Of a DNA stretch of 64,000 nucleotides, positions 207 to 64,000 are shown in pieces (position 1 is the first letter of the stretch; every line of letters starts with the position of its first letter). The DNA is from Oscillatoriales cyanobacterium. GTDB taxonomy: Bacteria; Cyanobacteriota; Cyanobacteriia; Cyanobacteriales; Microcoleaceae. The translations under genes and the position numbers were made by a program. The notes beneath the pieces are model-generated. The model saw only the letters and a list, made by a program, of their open reading frames with translations, was not told the origin of the DNA and searched no databases. The stretch spans positions 1 through 64,000 of the forward strand of contig RDXX01000020.1 of assembly GCA_004292955.1 (NCBI GenBank), read 5' to 3'.

Positions 207-1649
207 ATGGAAGTTTACTGCACCCGCCCGGGCTGCCCGCGCCCTCAAAACAATTTTTCCGACCTCGATGACAGTTCCCTGCTGAAAACGGTGCAGCAAA
301 GGTATTGCAAGGCCTGTGGAATGCCCCTAATTTTGAGCGGGCGCTATTTGCCAGTCAGGTTGCTGGGTCAAGGCGGTTTTGGGGCGGCATTTTTGGCCAG
401 AGACCGCTATACTCCGGCGATGCGGCAGTGCGTTGCTAAACTTTTGCAGCCGTCGGCAAATATGACTCCGGCACAGCTAAAAATCGCTCAAACTCTGTTT
501 GAACGGGAAGCGGCGGTGCTGGAAGAACTGGGAAACGAACATTCGCAAATTCCGAGTTTGCTGGCGTTTTTTGAGCTGACTGTTCCGAGTTTGCAGCCTG
601 GGAAAAACGATCAGTTTTTCTATCTGGTTCAAGAATTTATTGACGGTCACAATTTGGAGGAAGAACTTGTTGTTAAAGGCAAGTTTTCGGAAGCGGAAAC
701 GATGGAGGTGCTGCGGGAAATTTTGAAGGTTCTCGATTTTGTACACTCGCGCGGTTCGATTCACCGGGATATTAAACCTGCTAATATTATGCGGGCTAAA
801 AGTGGTCGGCTTTATTTATTAGATTTTGGGGCTGTCAAACAGGTGACGCAAACTGCGGGTGCTTCTAAGGCTTCGACTGGTATTTATTCTTTGGGTTATG
901 CTCCGCCCGAACAGATGAACGGACAAGAGGTTTATCCCGCAACGGATTTTTATGCTTTGGCTGTGACTTGCATTACTTTGCTCAGCGGTTTGCAGCCGAC
1001 GGAATTGTTTGATAGTTATGAAAATGAGTGGAATTGGCGATCGCACGTACAGGTAAGCCCGCGTTTGGCTGAAGTTCTCGATCGAATGTTGTTACCGGCT
1101 CCCAGCCAGCGCTATCAATCGGCGATCGAGGTGGAAGCGGCTCTGAAATACAATTCTCAACAGCCTACGATGGTGGTGCAGCCGCCTCCCCAACCCACTC
1201 CGACCCCCCAACCAACTCAGCAGCCTCCTGTGCCTCCTGTGGTGGCGACTCCTCCGGGAAACCTGCAATCGGGGCCGCGAAGGGCTTTTTCGATTTGGGA
1301 TATTTTGGGTGGGGCTGCGTTTACGGGTTTTGAAGGGGGGTTGCTGGCGATCGCCCTGACGAGTTTGCTGCCGAATCCAAGTGTGAGTATCGGATTGTTG
1401 GGGATGATTGTCGGGGGGCTAATTTTCGGCCAGTACCGCAGGGCGATCGAGCAAACTGAGATGCTGATTATTAGTGCAGGTACTCTGGCTGTACTGTGGT
1501 TTTTCCCGGCTTTGCGCGCTGCTGTTACGATTTATCCAAATTCTCCTTTCACAGGCGTGTTGTTTGTGGGATGGTTGGCTGCTTTAGGGGCGATCGCGGC
1601 AACAGCTATTTTTCGCTTAATTTATAAGTTACTTTCTAATATTTTTTAA
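207..1649 (+). CDS. Ser/Thr protein kinase with N-terminal Cys cluster and C-terminal membrane segments
   Basis: Eukaryotic-type protein kinase of 480 residues that phosphorylates Ser/Thr on unknown partners. Seen: four N-terminal cysteines (C5, C10, C34, C37) arranged like a small zinc ribbon; a glycine-rich loop (GQGGFGAAF, about 54-62); catalytic HRDIKPAN near residue 186; DFG near 206; a Pro/Gln-rich linker at about 320-350; and two to three hydrophobic helices after residue 370, so the catalytic domain probably faces the cytoplasm from the membrane. The Cys cluster before the kinase domain is known from cyanobacterial SpkB-like kinases, where cysteines are linked to redox control; extending that role to this protein is inference. 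The ATG directly follows the repeat array, so the promoter must lie in or upstream of it. Confidence 0.9.
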   Translation: MEVYCTRPGCPRPQNNFSDLDDSSLLKTVQQRYCKACGMPLILSGRYLPVRLLGQGGFGAAFLARDRYTPAMRQCVAKLLQPSANMTPAQLKIAQTLFEREAAVLEELGNEHSQIPSLLAFFELTVPSLQPGKNDQFFYLVQEFIDGHNLEEELVVKGKFSEAETMEVLREILKVLDFVHSRGSIHRDIKPANIMRAKSGRLYLLDFGAVKQVTQTAGASKASTGIYSLGYAPPEQMNGQEVYPATDFYALAVTCITLLSGLQPTELFDSYENEWNWRSHVQVSPRLAEVLDRMLLPAPSQRYQSAIEVEAALKYNSQQPTMVVQPPPQPTPTPQPTQQPPVPPVVATPPGNLQSGPRRAFSIWDILGGAAFTGFEGGLLAIALTSLLPNPSVSIGLLGMIVGGLIFGQYRRAIEQTEMLIISAGTLAVLWFFPALRAAVTIYPNSPFTGVLFVGWLAALGAIAATAIFRLIYKLLSNIF

Positions 1650-26595: not shown

Positions 26596-26773
26596 CATCC
26601 CTGAAACACCTACAAAATAGTGGATGAGGAGAGGAGGGTAGGCACGCACCGTCCACTACCCCTACAAATTTTCTCAATCTCTTTGTTAACAGAAGATCGA
26701 TTGACTCATATTCTTTCTTTGTAAAAATTTACTTAAAAAAAAAGAGGGTATACCCTCCTTAATTAATAACATT

Positions 26774-27098
26774 GACATACTCCCCGTCGTAAACGAGCGG
26801 GGATTCTTGACACTTCATCGGATGATGCAACGCCCGGTTGTCTTACTCTTCCTCCATGTCCGTTTAGAGTCGTGGCAATGCCCTATCCCGACTATATGTA
26901 TCGTTTTGTTTTAACTAACAATACTTTTGTTTTGCTTCCAGGTTGGATTATAACCATTGCCCTTCAGTCTTTCCCTATTTCTTGAGCAGTCCCGGTTTCA
27001 ACTCTGATGAGTATATATCGCTGCACTATACGGCGGGGATTTCAACCACCTACATTCTGGCACAAAGCCGTCCTGGAAGGACGGGGCTTCAAACCCAA
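26774..27098 (-). mobile_element. IS605-type deletion derivative without transposase genes
   Basis: Read on the minus strand the region starts with a hairpin end (GAAGCCCCGTCCTTCCAGG-type, 27075-27098) and finishes with AAGAATCCCCG...CGGGGAG.(AT)GTCAA at 26774-26815. The latter matches the 3' end of the omega-RNA of the tnpB element at 56755 and the stand-alone copy at 29908-30075. No tnpA or tnpB frame remains in the 325 bp, so it is a non-autonomous remnant or palindrome-associated element. The rest of the 26483-27117 gap holds no gene. Confidence 0.65.
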
Positions 27099-29654: not shown

Positions 29655-29750
29655 TTATTTGCCAATCCGGGGTGGTTCCCGAAAGGCTATCGCAAAAAAT
29701 AGTACACCTAAGGCTAAAGCCAGAATCAAAATGTAAGCAACGCTTTCCAT
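29655..29750 (-). CDS. psbT: Photosystem II reaction centre protein T
   Basis: A 31-residue single-helix thylakoid protein. Start [19 protein letters not shown] (residues 1-19) forms the membrane helix and is followed by the conserved stromal end [12 protein letters not shown]. PsbT sits at the PSII dimer interface and aids QA-site repair. In most cyanobacteria psbT directly follows psbB; here 409 bases separate them, filled by a terminator and an omega-RNA element, so psbT likely needs its own promoter. It is too short for ordinary ORF calling but the match is unmistakable. Confidence 0.96.
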
Positions 29751-29907
29751 GTTAAATTTTCCCTATCTTCCCTTGCCGTATTATTTTATCAGAAAATTGG
29801 GTTGAAAACCCCGTCCCGATCGGACGACTTTTTTACATTGTTAAGTAAAATAACAAATCCATCTTAACAAATGAATATGGTAGAATAACTAGACCAGACA
29901 AGATGTA

Positions 29908-30075
29908 AAAACCTACCCCCGGACTGGGGGAAAGTCTACGCCCAAAACATTTTTGAGGAGATATGACTACGCAGCTAGGCTGCAAATGTAGTCAGCCTGG
30001 GAACCCACGCTTGCGCGGGATATTTTGACAGAAATGTCTTAAGAATCCCCGTACCTTAAGGTCGGGGAGTGTCAA
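29908..30075 (+). ncRNA. Stand-alone TnpB-type omega-RNA (reRNA) / IS605 right end
   Basis: The plus strand carries the same ordered blocks as the 3' end of the tnpB element at 56755-56900 (minus strand): GATAT, a stem, GGGAACC-type junction, GGATATT, a short stem, TTAAGAATCCCC, a loop, GGGGAG.GTCAA. The stems are conserved in pairing but not in sequence (e.g. CCCACGCTTGCGCGGG here, CCTTGGTAACAAGG there). No tnpB frame is present nearby. RNA expression is inferred from known TnpB omega-RNAs, which are processed from the transposon right end. Confidence 0.6.
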
Positions 30076-30082
30076 TAACTAA

Positions 30083-30115
30083 AAAAACCCGGTTTCTTGA
30101 AGAAACCGGGTTTTT
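30083..30115. terminator. Bidirectional terminator downstream of psbB
   Basis: A perfect hairpin AAACCCGGTTTCTT / AGAAACCGGGTTT with a two-base loop, flanked by A-run and T-run on either side, 45 bases after the psbB stop. This is a classic intrinsic terminator readable on both strands. A relative of this hairpin with a longer loop lies at 42451-42519. Confidence 0.85.
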
Positions 30116-30159: not shown

Positions 30160-31689
30160 CTAGATAGATTCTTCTCTTCTTGTGCTCTTGTCGCCCAGTT
30201 TTTGGAACAAGCCCCACTCGACTTGTTCTTCCAGGTCAGCCTCAACTCCAGCAAACACGTCGCGGAAAATAGTCCGAGAACCGTGCCAGATATGGCCGAA
30301 GAAGAACAGCAAAGCAAAGCAAACGTGTCCGAAAGTAAACCAACCGCGAGTTGAAGTACGGAAAACACCGTCAGAATTCAAGGTTTCGCGATCGAATTCA
30401 AATACTTCACCCTGTTGGGCGGCGCGAGCAAACTTCTTAACATCTAAAGGATTCTTAAAAGTTTGACCGTTCAGTTCGCCACCGTAGAAGCTGACAGTAA
30501 CTCCGCTTTGTTCAAAGCTGTATTTTGATTCAGCACGGCGGAAGGGGATGTCAGCGCGAACGACCCCATCTTTGTCCGTCAAAATTACTGGGAAAGTTTC
30601 AAAGAAGTTCGGGAGGCGTCGTACCGACAATACCCGACCTTCGTTGTCAGTAAATACTGCATGGCCCAACCAAGTTTTAGCAATACCGTCGCCGTTGACC
30701 ATCGCGCCAGCACGGAACAAACCACCTTTAGCAGGAGAGTTGCCCACGTAGTCGTAGAAAGCCAATTTTTCGGGAATTTGCTCGTAAGCTTGTTGGAAGC
30801 TTTGACCGGCGGCCAAGCTAGCTTGAGCTCTGCGATCGATCTCTTGTTGGAAATAGTTGCCGTCCCACTGATAGCGAGTCGGGCCGAAAAGCTCGATCGG
30901 AGTAGCAGCAGAACCGTACCACATCGTACCCGCAACCACGAAAGCTGCAAAGAACACAGCAGCAATACTGCTAGAAAGTACAGTTTCGATGTTACCCATC
31001 CGCAGGGCTTTGTAAAGACGTTCCGGCGGCCGCACAGTCAAGTGGAACAAACCGGCAATTACGCCGACTACACCCGCTGCAATGTGGTGAGCGACGATGC
31101 CACCGGGATTGAACGGATCGAAGCCTTCAGGGCCCCAAGCAGGCGCCACTGGTTGGACGTGACCGGTCAAGCCGTAGGGGTCGGAAACCCACATTCCCGG
31201 GCCAAAAAGTCCGGAAAGGTGAAATGCCCCGAAGCCGAAGCACAGCAAGCCGGAGAGGAACAAGTGAATGCCAAACATTTTTGGCAAGTCGAGGGCTGGT
31301 TCGCCGGTGCGAGGATCTCTGAAGAGTTCCAAATCCCAGAATACCCAGTGCCAGACTGCTGCTAAAAACAGCAAACCGGAGAGGATGATGTGAGCAACAG
31401 CAACGCCTTCAACAGACCAGAAGCCCGGATCGACGTTAGTTTCGCCGGTGAGGCTCCAACCGCCCCAAGAACCGGTGACTCCTAAGCGAGCCATGAAGGG
31501 TAGCACGAACATCCCTTGACGCCACATCGGGTTAAGAACTGGGTCTGTGGGGTCAAAAACTGCTAGTTCGTAAAGGGCCATTGAGCCGGCCCAACCAGCC
31601 ACGAGGGCAGTGTGCATTAAGTGTACAGAAATCAATCGACCTGGGTCATTTAAGACGACTGTGTGTACGCGATACCAGGGTAGTCCCAT
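30160..31689 (-). CDS. psbB: Photosystem II CP47 chlorophyll apoprotein
   Basis: CP47, 509 residues, the core antenna of PSII that passes excitation to the reaction centre. Six membrane helices with many chlorophyll-ligand histidines ([19 protein letters not shown] start, [66 protein letters not shown]) and the large lumenal loop between helices V and VI are all present. Full length and intact. The gene is followed by a strong terminator and only then, beyond an omega-RNA element, by psbT. Confidence 0.98.
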
Positions 31690-56754: not shown

Positions 56755-56900
56755 TTGACGCTCCCCTGGCTAAAGCCGAGGGGATTCTTAAGGCATTATG
56801 GCCTCAATATCCTTGTTACCAAGGTTCCCAAACTCACCACGTTTGCTTTTTGAGCGTGGTGATATCTTTTGGGCGTTTAGGTGACTAGCACCAAGTTTCG
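56755..56900 (-). ncRNA. TnpB omega-RNA (reRNA) scaffold
   Basis: On the minus strand the 3' end of tnpB runs into GATATCACCACGCTC...GTGGTG, GGGAACC, CCTTGG...CCAAGG-type stem, GGATATTGAGGC, TTAAGAATCCCC, GGGGAGCGTCAA. TnpB omega-RNAs occupy this position in known systems and carry a guide copied from DNA just beyond the right end, here beginning ACCTATAGTC. Confidence 0.65.
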
Positions 56901-58195
56901 CGTCCTGGCCCACGTACTATTTCTAAAGCTCGATCTTTGATGGTTTTTGCTGCACCAATATCGGCGTGTTCGTGATAACCGCATTCCGTGCAAATGAATT
57001 TTTCGCCATCTCGGTTAGACTTGTCAGTATGACCGCAGTTCCGACATTCTTGGCTGGAGAATTTGGGATTAATTTTGATTGCGACCTTTCCTTGCTTTGC
57101 AGCGAGATACTCGATCTTCAAGATTAATTCGCCCCAACTAGCATCGGAGATAGAACGGTTCAAACCTTTCTTCCTTGACTGCCCATTCTTGAGAAATCTA
57201 CCTGTTTTCTCATCAACTTTTACTCGACATCGGCGCATCATGCCGGAAATATTCAAGTCTTCCAAAGCAATCGCCTCAACGTTACGAGAAACTATTTTAT
57301 TGGCAACTTTCCATTGGTAAGCTTGGCGCTTGTCGCTAATTTTTTGGTGAAAAAGTCCTAGCTTTTTGGCAGCTTTTTTGCGATTTTTACTGCCTTTCAC
57401 TTTTCGGCTAACTCGTCTCTGCCTAATTTTCAGAGTGCGCTTAGCTTTCTTGCTGGTTGAAAACTTGGGATTTTCAATTTGAGTTCCATCGGATAGATGA
57501 ACTAATTTGGTAATTCCCAGATCGCAACCAATTACTTTGACAACATCCTTGAGAGGTTTTGTCATATAATCGTGGACAGATTTGTTCTCAATACGGATAG
57601 AGACATACCAACCATTTTGTCGCTTTCTTACCGCACAAGCTTTAATGATAAAGCCATCGGGAATTGGACGCGAGTTGTGAAAACGCATCCAGCCTAACTT
57701 GGGTAGGTAAATTTTACTACCCTGGATCTTTACTCCCATCACAAAAGTAAAAGAAGTAAAGTTGCTGCGGTTCTTAAACTTAGGGAAACCACGCCCGTCG
57801 AAGAAATTCTTATAGGCTGTGTCTAACCGTTTGACGTTCTGTTGTAGCACAGTTGAATCTATTCCGCTGAACCAAGGTCTAGCCGCCTTCAATTCGGGCA
57901 ACGCGGTGATTTGAATGTCACCTGGGTTGCGTCGAGGGTTTTTAACTTTATCTGTTTTACCCGTCTTCCAAGGTTCACCAGTCGCGCCATTTTTAGAGAC
58001 ACAACTGGTCAAGGGGCAGGCTTCACTTTGCGTCCTAACGTCGCAATAGTTACCTTGAATGAACTGCTGACTATATTGAGCGATTCTGTCATTGAGACAC
58101 CAATTGTAATGGCTTCGCAACATATCTACCCAATTGGACATTTTTAAGTCTTGTTTTTGACTTGGACGCAACTTGTATACATAGTTTGTTAACAA
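56885..58195 (-). CDS. tnpB: RNA-guided endonuclease TnpB
   Basis: A 436-residue IS200/IS605-family TnpB, full length. The RuvC catalytic residues are visible: Asp in VIGCDLGITKLVHL, Glu in IALEDLNISGMMR, and Asp in HADIGAAKTIKDRAL. The zinc ribbon is CRNCGHTDKSNRDGEKFICTECG (four Cys). The N-terminal helix-turn-helix (SHYNWCLNDRIAQY) is normal. TnpB cuts DNA matched by the omega-RNA guide and helps keep the element. It appears intact, so it may be active although TnpA is gone. Confidence 0.93.
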   Translation of the reverse strand: MLTNYVYKLRPSQKQDLKMSNWVDMLRSHYNWCLNDRIAQYSQQFIQGNYCDVRTQSEACPLTSCVSKNGATGEPWKTGKTDKVKNPRRNPGDIQITALPELKAARPWFSGIDSTVLQQNVKRLDTAYKNFFDGRGFPKFKNRSNFTSFTFVMGVKIQGSKIYLPKLGWMRFHNSRPIPDGFIIKACAVRKRQNGWYVSIRIENKSVHDYMTKPLKDVVKVIGCDLGITKLVHLSDGTQIENPKFSTSKKAKRTLKIRQRRVSRKVKGSKNRKKAAKKLGLFHQKISDKRQAYQWKVANKIVSRNVEAIALEDLNISGMMRRCRVKVDEKTGRFLKNGQSRKKGLNRSISDASWGELILKIEYLAAKQGKVAIKINPKFSSQECRNCGHTDKSNRDGEKFICTECGYHEHADIGAAKTIKDRALEIVRGPGRETWC

Positions 58196-62943: not shown

Positions 62944-64000
62944 TTAACCCGCCTCGGCTGAACTACGCCCACGACGTATCCCATCGCCGAACGCATTTGG
63001 GATTGCTTTTCTGAGAATGTTAAAAGAACCGTTCACGTCAGAATTTTGATTCCAACTAAAAAAGCTTTGTATTCCAGCATCTCAATTAATCGAGCGTGAG
63101 GAATGCTGACAAAGTTTTGGTTAGTTTGCTTCCCCATATTGATCTCGGTTTTCCACTGTGCATTCTTGCCAATTACTAGCGTCCCAATTTGTTGTGCGAC
63201 CAGAATATCGACAATCGTGCGACTTGTATGATGCAAGTAATTGTCTACTTTTTGATTGCGGCAGCGAGTTAAGCGTTGAATGCGTGACGATGTTTGGCGC
63301 CTCCCTTTCAATTGGGATTGCAATTGTGCTTTACGCTTGTTATAGAACTGGTTAATCGATTTCAATGGTCGTCCATTAATCAACAGTGGGATCAAACCCG
63401 GTTGATTTGAAGTTAACGCCACCAAATTATTCAGTCCTAAATCAATACTAGCTACAAAATTGTTATTTTTAGCGGTGGACTCCGGTTCACTTCGACTACG
63501 CTCAGTACAAGCATTGTAAATCACCTCAATTACATAAGAATCGCATTTTGGAACCAACCTAACTTGACAAATCCGGTCAGGATTGACTTTAGTTTTAATT
63601 GAAAATTCAGTACCAGAAAGTTTGACAATTCCGTTTCTCAACTGTTTACTGCTAATCGCCTGAATCGTGTAAATAAGGATATTTCGACCTTTAACCTTGT
63701 CCTTGTATTTAGGTAACTTTGGACGACCCGTAAATTTTAAAGAGTCAGCTTTGTAAGCTTTGACGGCTTCAAAAAACGATTTCCAATTCTGATCTAGCAC
63801 CATCAATATTTGCTGACTTACTTTAGCAGGCAAAGCCTTGTATGCGACCTGAGACTTCATCAATCGGTTCATCTCGTTGTAATTGACGTAGCCCCATCCA
63901 TAAATCAAGTTCTGACGAATGACATAATTGGCGGCATTGTACAGATTTTTGGACTTGAATGCTAGTTGGTCAATCTCGACAAAACGAGGTTCCGTTGATT
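62944..64000 (-). pseudogene. tnpB: tnpB remnant, partial at window edge
   Basis: A TnpB of another subfamily runs in from beyond the right edge (FVEIDQLAFKSKNLYNAANY at the edge). RuvC Asp is in VASIDLGLNNLVAL. After GTLVIGKNAQWK and IEMLEYKAFLVGIKIL the frame stops at 63033, and the family end DVNGSFNILRKAIPNAFGDG continues in another frame to 62944. The zinc-ribbon region between them is deleted, so the gene is dead. A short dispersed repeat is inserted in frame at about 63486-63512, encoding CTERSRSE. Confidence 0.85.

Follow-up and report, generated by a model that had tools for sequence, protein, structure and literature searches.

A putative tnpB-less transposon between psbT and psbB

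The DNA at 29790-30075 (+) of the window, by which we mean the whole 64,000-nucleotide stretch of a filamentous cyanobacterium analysed here, is probably a mobile, tnpB-less and non-autonomous transposon of the IS200/IS605 type, PATE-like in character, with no tnpA or tnpB gene and with both transposon ends and a complete TnpB omega-RNA that appears to have its own promoter; we put the probability of this reading at about 0.7. An earlier note on this DNA had described a stand-alone omega-RNA at 29908-30075, and this observation is confirmed, although the unit is larger than described: the segment is the larger part of the omega-RNA, on the + strand, but the RNA would start near 29892 and the element as a whole covers 29790-30075.

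With 286 bp, or fewer than 100 codons, the element has no room for a transposase or TnpB gene. Its limits are given by the homology between copies and by the joined-flank empty sites of the C140 copy described below; because the copies all start with TTATC and end with TCAA, we place the element proper at 29790-30075, with TTAT, the TAM and insertion tetranucleotide, just outside the left end at 29786-29789 (+). Both neighbouring genes belong to photosynthesis and are identified by NCBIfam, psbT at 29658-29750 (-) and psbB at 30160-31689 (-), so that the element does split the psbB-psbT neighbourhood as had been claimed. The statement that no tnpB is near also holds: the nearest TnpB-domain match on the contig is about 27 kb away. 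The RNA therefore overlaps no tnpB 3' end and is a standalone variant.

The left end (LE) carries two subterminal hairpins, GGGTTGAAAACCC and CGTCCCGATCGGACG, at 29799-29826 (+; 29799-29811 and 29812-29826, respectively), which are kept in most of the aligned copies and resemble the LE of two tnpA-bearing elements of the same genome (77% over 43 bp and 80% over 30 bp). The right end (RE) hairpin, TCCCCG...CGGGGA at 30046-30068 (+), is also the last stem of the omega-RNA, with changes on both sides at six of nine pairs (helix 5 of the 28-sequence alignment below), and such an RE is common to the tnpB elements of this genome. It is followed by the RE tip GTGTCAA at 30069-30075 (+), in which TGTC pairs with GACA at 29897-29900, the closing pairs being kept in 22-23 of 23 sequences. 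By analogy to IS608, we take the terminal TCAA to be the right cleavage site of the element. Thirteen Y1 transposase matches are present in this genome, six of them nearly full-length and open; a TnpA with the exact LE was not found in this genome, the two closest LEs carrying TTAC or a degenerate tetranucleotide instead of TTAT.

A search of the window against Rfam returned no family at gathering score. Six sub-threshold matches (E up to 1) were rejected as evidence of a known family; the best, to Thr_leader (E 0.023, far below the cut-off), covers the RE hairpin and the terminator.

Copies, mobility and empty sites

The earlier note considered an orphan guide RNA, but the RNA is no isolated case: it is the cargo of a multi-copy non-autonomous transposon with four full-length copies in this genome. 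At least 40 matches to 29912-30075 occur here, 40 of 57 candidates having been scored, four of them full-length (100, 96, 86 and 81% identity) and 36 partial; many of the partial matches comprise the last 30-45 nt only, and several of those that we read are right ends behind tnpB genes. When a 293-base query was searched in 39 genomes, this one included, and the best 19 or fewer candidates per genome were scored, at least 20 full-length copies were found in eight of the 39 genomes, and some match, often only to an end, in 31. Copies were counted as full-length where the query was covered from position 4 or earlier to its end, one of the 20 being in two pieces owing to an insert. Each of the 20 reads TTATC at its start and TCAA at its end, and they represent around 16 distinct sites, since the flanks differ except in a few orthologous copies. 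When 23 copies were aligned, some of which differ in their left part, the LE hairpins, a middle part and the omega-RNA/RE could be recognised.

Two loci have unusual arrangements. In one copy of this genome (L117, C115:82662-83076) an insert of about 120 bp lies within the leader and consists of a palindrome and repeated CTGTCAA units. In genome G005, locus L112 (C227) has two tandem omega-RNA matches, at 765-888 and 1190-1308 (+), about 300 bp apart.

Mobility was examined by joining the left and right flanks of the C140 copy of this genome and searching the joined sequence in same-genus genomes. It matched as one uninterrupted stretch across the junction in 27 of the 28 other genomes (G015 gave no match), and as two pieces around the element in the genome of origin. 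In all 12 of the empty sites that were read, TTAT stands directly before the sequence that abuts the RE. By this comparison the C140 copy is an insertion 3' of TTAT without target duplication, the pattern of IS200/IS605 elements, and its would-be guide position adjoins the TAM in the empty allele.

The standalone RNA has the scaffold of tnpB-linked omega-RNAs

The predicted omega-RNA scaffold spans 29892-30075 (+), with a putative 5' end, and is drawn from alignments, covariation, a covariance-model match and the predicted fold, which has a z of -3.19 against shuffles. The earlier note had remarked that the stems keep pairing while their bases change, and this is borne out: in an alignment of 23 standalone and five tnpB-linked RNAs, changes on both sides occur at 20 of 30 pairs (shuffled mean 10.1), and the covariation score is 0.350 against 0.155 for shuffles, with none of 500 shuffles reaching it. 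This alignment takes the regions from ACGCC on with a hand-made structure, and leaves out remnant L005, whose core differs. Helices 1 and 2, the stem GACTAC/GTAGTC with the inner GCAGC/GCTGC at 29965-29993 (+), account for both-sides changes at eight of 11 pairs. For the 23 standalone RNAs by themselves, the RNAalifold consensus has 36 pairs, seven with both-sides changes (shuffled mean 3.6), and a covariation score of 0.173 (shuffled mean 0.116) that lies above 500 of 500 shuffles and all slid controls; one of five measures, pair types, is not above the shuffles (188/500). This set does not include the orthologous copies L119 and L125, nor the loci L131-L133 and L136-L148, which are partial or of another type.

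Shuffles do not correct for relatedness, and we therefore added a test with a covariance model, R2, built from six tnpB-linked omega-RNAs only, with no standalone sequence. On the window, R2 gives 29950-30075 (+) a score of 80.9 bits (E 1.9e-16), which is exceeded solely by its own training element at 56755, and there is no other strong match. As the next, an isolated right end, receives 15.3 bits, the score of the segment must come from more than its right end. The ordered blocks that had been noticed in common with the omega-RNA at 56755 are thus real. R2 also matches each of the 22 other standalone copies given to it. Five of its six training RNAs had themselves been retrieved with the segment or with model R1, of which the segment is a part, the sixth being the 56755 element, and R2 is for this reason a test of shared family and not a blind draw. 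Together, the R2 matches and the covariation define a conserved scaffold common to the RNA at 29892-30075 and the tnpB-linked omega-RNAs.

A conserved leader in place of the tnpB end

The 5' part of the RNA is a module specific to the standalone type at 29892-29937 (+), which comprises the closing-stem arm GACA at 29897-29900, AAAACCTACC and a hairpin, CCCCC/GGGGG, at 29916-29930. Its pattern, ACAAGA..T.AAAACC.ACC followed by the hairpin and GGAAAG, stands in place of the tnpB end, and occurs exactly in at least 117 stretches of public genomes. The 80 titled stretches among the matches listed are, as we take them from their names, all cyanobacteria, from Nostoc, Anabaena, Calothrix, Crocosphaera and Nodularia to Microcoleus and Tychonema; this cyanobacterial distribution holds among the matches listed, and other phyla are still possible.

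Among the matches listed, none of 118 modules has a tnpB directly upstream or overlapping it (nine query proteins, tblastn E 1e-5), and none has a TnpB zinc-ribbon motif within 900 nt upstream. A TnpB homologue lies elsewhere within 2 kb of five modules; the other 113 have none, six of these with less than 300 bp of upstream sequence. In a control the same search recovered seven of eight known tnpB neighbours, all from this genome, and its reach in other genera is accordingly less certain. A same-strand open frame of at least 150 aa ends 150 nt or less from the module in nine of the 118, and a recognisable ...GTCAA end is found 110-320 nt downstream in only 79. R2 was also run on 23 loci selected from the 117, for the most part in other genera. 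In 20 of these it has a match with E <1e-5 no more than about 250 nt downstream of the module; among the remaining three, one gave a weak match (22.7 bits), one is truncated where its stretch ends and one has no match nearby.

Upstream of the omega-RNA lies a -10-like box, TAGAAT, at 29881-29886 (+). A TAnnnT box with at least four of six matches to TATAAT is present upstream in 38 of 43 non-redundant cases (shuffles: mean 24%, maximum 47%), and 30 of the 38 boxes fall within a 3-nt spacing range. A scan with the general consensus gave no sigma-70 -35/-10 pair on the + strand, for which reason we speak of a putative promoter.

These observations bear on two other accounts of the element. One, which we regard as unlikely though worth weighing, is that it is an inert passenger, mobilised by TnpA in trans, in which the omega-RNA survives only by overlapping the right end and has no function as RNA. 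The RE hairpin is needed for TnpA in IS608 and ISDra2 and would be retained anyway, and the copy in genome G016 does keep this hairpin, with one broken pair apiece in closing stem, hairpin A and central stem, and with a different predicted fold. However, the covariation is not confined to the RE hairpin and reaches the central stem, 80-110 nt from the tip, and the -10-like box and 5' module, neither of which TnpA would need, are kept in many cyanobacterial genera.

The other account, a simple internal-deletion relic of a tnpB element whose RNA is transcribed by readthrough only, seems to us improbable. By eye, the order AAACC-hairpin-ACGCC is common to the standalone RNA and the tnpB 3' end, and one such remnant does exist at C30:43978; but because several cyanobacterial genera share the 5' module and -10-like box, and the module is never next to tnpB among the matches listed, the standalone omega-RNA would be an old lineage with its own leader, and not a fresh deletion of a tnpB element.

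The guide and the psbB-psbT site

The would-be guide, TAACTAAAAAAACCCGGTTT at 30076-30095 (+), is the host DNA that abuts the RE. A palindromic terminator-like site downstream of psbB lies at 30083-30115 (-), and its left arm overlaps the guide, so that the earlier placing of the guide just past 30075, at the psbB terminator, stands; the guide is found there because the element inserted there. When this genome was searched for TTAT followed by guide bases 1-17, allowing three mismatches at most, two places were returned: the element's own locus, with TCAA for TTAT, and one site with three mismatches and TGTT for TTAT. Within these limits this genome thus holds no intact TTAT+guide target.

Comparison of the psbB-psbT spacing in relatives, which had been put forward as a check, shows no element match between the genes in 25 of 29 same-genus genomes; members of the element family are present in this genome (G000), G016 and G021, and another IS605-like element in G042. 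Nine of the 25 empty alleles read TTAT|TAACT, where TAACT is the sequence abutting the RE in this genome, and the other 16 differ at this point, several holding other inserts. The filled alleles lack about 20 bp that the empty ones have between two TTAT motifs, and the insertion is therefore not as clean as that of the C140 copy. As TTAT directly precedes the would-be guide sequence in the 12 empty sites of the C140 copy that were read, and in nine of the 25 empty alleles here, the guide matches the element's own empty site. This match would fit retention or homing rather than regulation of psbB and, since guide and TTAT match the empty alleles of relatives and there is no intact target in this genome within three mismatches, retention or homing through a TnpB acting in trans is the likeliest role for the RNA.

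The tree assigns the G021 copy to another subfamily, with support of 99/99, and on this ground we reject a single-origin insertion at psbB-psbT; the G021 copy would be an independent insertion at the same place or the result of gene conversion. A different subfamily at the same junction is not explained by simple insertion, and counts against our best explanation. In G042, a different and longer IS605-like element (L080) starts at the same TTATC of the psbB-psbT spacer, which suggests that this TTATC is a recurrently used site.

The copies in G000 and G016 differ at 13 positions in the 286 bp of the element and at two in the other 121 bp of the spacer, and over 541 bp of psbB their identity rounds to 100%. 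In the tree, the G016 branch carries nearly all of the change (0.048 vs 0.004). Three changes account for the broken pairs in the G016 stems named above, and the predicted fold is no longer like that of the family, though still better than most shuffles (z -2.79). To judge from these substitutions the G016 copy is decaying, which speaks against a conserved regulatory role at psbB-psbT. Vertical conservation here with selection on structure was accordingly not found, given 25 of 29 genomes with no match, a decaying copy in G016 and a copy of another subfamily in G021.

The earlier note also suggested a domesticated regulator. Such a reading, in which the RNA with TnpB or a nuclease-dead relative would bind the psbB terminator region and tune psbB or psbT, has in its favour the position of the element between these genes and the overlap of the guide with the terminator-like site, but is very improbable given the absence of the element from 25 of 29 genomes, the 13 differences in the G016 copy against two in the rest of the spacer, the lack of TTAT at the self locus and the unrelated sites of the other copies. 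TldR proteins are related to TnpB. The TldR RNA-guided transcription factors, in the excerpts of PMC13418256 consulted, are an RNA-guided system in regulatory use; here, by contrast, we found no dead TnpB and no conserved host target.

Candidate TnpB partners and a proposed mechanism

A candidate partner in trans is encoded in the window itself, at 56755-58195 (-), where a tnpB gene (56885-58195, 436 aa) is accompanied by its linked omega-RNA/RE (56755-56876). The protein matches NF040570 guided_TnpB of NCBIfam with 253 bits, has OrfB_IS605 and Cas12f1-like_TNB domains, and resembles the TnpB of known structure 8bf8 (E 9.8e-32), which we take to be that of ISDra2. Six tnpB-linked omega-RNAs of the same subtype are present in this genome, and in three or more of the tnpB genes that carry this subtype the frame is open over at least 440 codons. 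The TnpB domain PF07282 has 97 matches here at E 0.01 or better, 93 of them over the curated cut-off, a large complement for one 7.3 Mb genome.

With model R1, which was trained partly on copies from this genome and with which the best 150 of 1777 first-look candidates were scored, at least 28 omega-RNA candidates were found in this genome at E 0.01 or better. Fifteen of these score at least 79 bits; six have a TnpB domain just upstream and nine do not, the nine including one tnpB tail remnant and one locus with a TnpB domain about 950 bp upstream.

Service of the omega-RNA by a resident TnpB in trans is, on sequence grounds, a plausible role and the best functional reading. As the element lacks a protein gene but has a complete guide RNA, and has relatives in many cyanobacteria, it probably relies on nucleases encoded at other loci of its host; its 5' module differs from the tnpB 3' end, and for this reason recognition of the standalone RNA by TnpB is not certain. 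In the mechanism that we propose, TnpA made elsewhere would excise the element and paste it as single-stranded DNA, and the omega-RNA would be transcribed from about 29892 into host DNA and would load a same-subtype TnpB, likewise made elsewhere. The loaded TnpB would cut TTAT + TAACTAAAAAAACCC on chromosomes without the element, and repair from an element-bearing chromosome copy would keep or spread it. The filled allele would be spared, because there TCAA replaces TTAT. The element would in this way live off resident IS605 elements, making use of their TnpA as well as their TnpB. Retention or homing has been proposed for TnpB on its own element in the sections consulted of PMC10278001 and PMC11870625.

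Comparison with known systems

The PATEs are palindrome-associated transposable elements of Haloquadratum walsbyi (PMC3119063), and a PATE-like sequence of Halanaerobium keeps the last 58 nt of tnpB (PMC7290912). As these sources describe them in the parts considered here, PATEs are, like the present element, short and protein-free, with IS605-type ends, near-terminal palindromes and no target duplication, and are likewise thought to be moved in trans. Those parts mention no guide RNA, whereas the element in the window has a complete omega-RNA with a conserved 5' module and, unlike the Halanaerobium sequence, no recognisable tnpB tail.

Omega-RNAs without a protein are also found in the Fanzor ghost loci of Spizellomyces punctatus, for which the authors propose service in trans (PMC10432273, excerpts); those loci are eukaryotic, belong to Fanzor and have inverted repeats, whereas the present family is bacterial, belongs to TnpB, has IS605-type ends and extends over many genera. 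The standalone omega-RNAs used by IscB, as cited in the part of PMC9581776 consulted, are likewise guide RNAs encoded away from their OMEGA nuclease, which there is IscB and here would be TnpB. In the tnpB-linked omega-RNA of the ISDra2/IS605 type, too, the RNA ends at the RE, the guide is flanking DNA and the TAM is the insertion motif, according to the relevant sections of PMC10278001 and PMC8612924; there, however, the RNA is cut from the tnpB mRNA, whereas a standalone RNA must be transcribed alone.

For Anabaena sp. 90, the portion of PMC3542288 used here reports 147 short, protein-free MITEs of 77-541 bp in addition to many IS200/IS605 elements. Some of these MITEs could be elements like that at 29790-30075, a likeness by description only. 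In that source they are classed as type II MITEs that have terminal inverted repeats and do not resemble the IS ends. The excerpts of PMC10711439 and PMC11061315 add nothing on tnpB-less RNAs. In the literature searched, whose coverage was incomplete so that an earlier mention is possible, no promoter-driven, tnpB-less omega-RNA element family is described in cyanobacteria.

The role generally ascribed to TnpB is retention of the transposon that encodes it. We consider the odds about even that cyanobacteria carry a widespread lineage of guide-only transposons, that is, protein-free IS605-type elements with dedicated, promoter-driven omega-RNA genes that would recruit TnpB encoded elsewhere to cut their own empty sites, which would amount to a gene drive by hyperparasites of the resident IS605 elements and to a genome-wide library of guides in trans. 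If protein-free elements do use any TnpB of the same subtype, retention would become a common good that parasites can exploit, and a single TnpB may be supplied with many guides, in the manner of early CRISPR arrays. A testable case is offered by the window, with a defined RNA, the TAM TTAT, the empty-site target TTAT+TAACTAAAAAAACCCGG and a candidate TnpB.

Other omega-RNA loci

An omega-RNA of the same family lies upstream of a PP2C-type phosphatase gene in this genome (site Q; L295, C115:34612-34748, -; orthologous loci L301-L324). R1 finds an omega-RNA at the orthologous site in 22 of 29 same-genus genomes, 18 with one core type and four with another, and in the six loci compared the LE is decayed or lost and the guide-side flank is conserved. 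Covariation among the 18 same-core RNAs is near that of shuffles (0.133 vs 0.110, 21/500; both-sides pairs 2 vs 2.1), and about four of the seven genomes without the RNA have, by eye, remnants of other IS605 or tnpB elements close to that flank. Given the weak covariation, the four genomes with another core and these remnants, we reject site Q as proof of exaptation and read it as an old IS605-occupied site.

Elsewhere in the window, a weak R2 match at 26772-26873 (-) covers little more than a right end of IS605 type, GAATCCCCG...CGGGGAGTATGTCAA, the remainder of the scaffold being absent, and a 291-aa open frame at 63033-63908 (-) resembles, by eye, a TnpB of another subtype without its C-terminus. 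This genome also contains a second kind of tnpB-less omega-RNA in three copies (L279, L280 and L282, at C62:153006, C147:56592 and C150:6414, respectively); both the leader and the core, GAGGAGCTTGC...GGCAAGGATAGCAGCC, are different.
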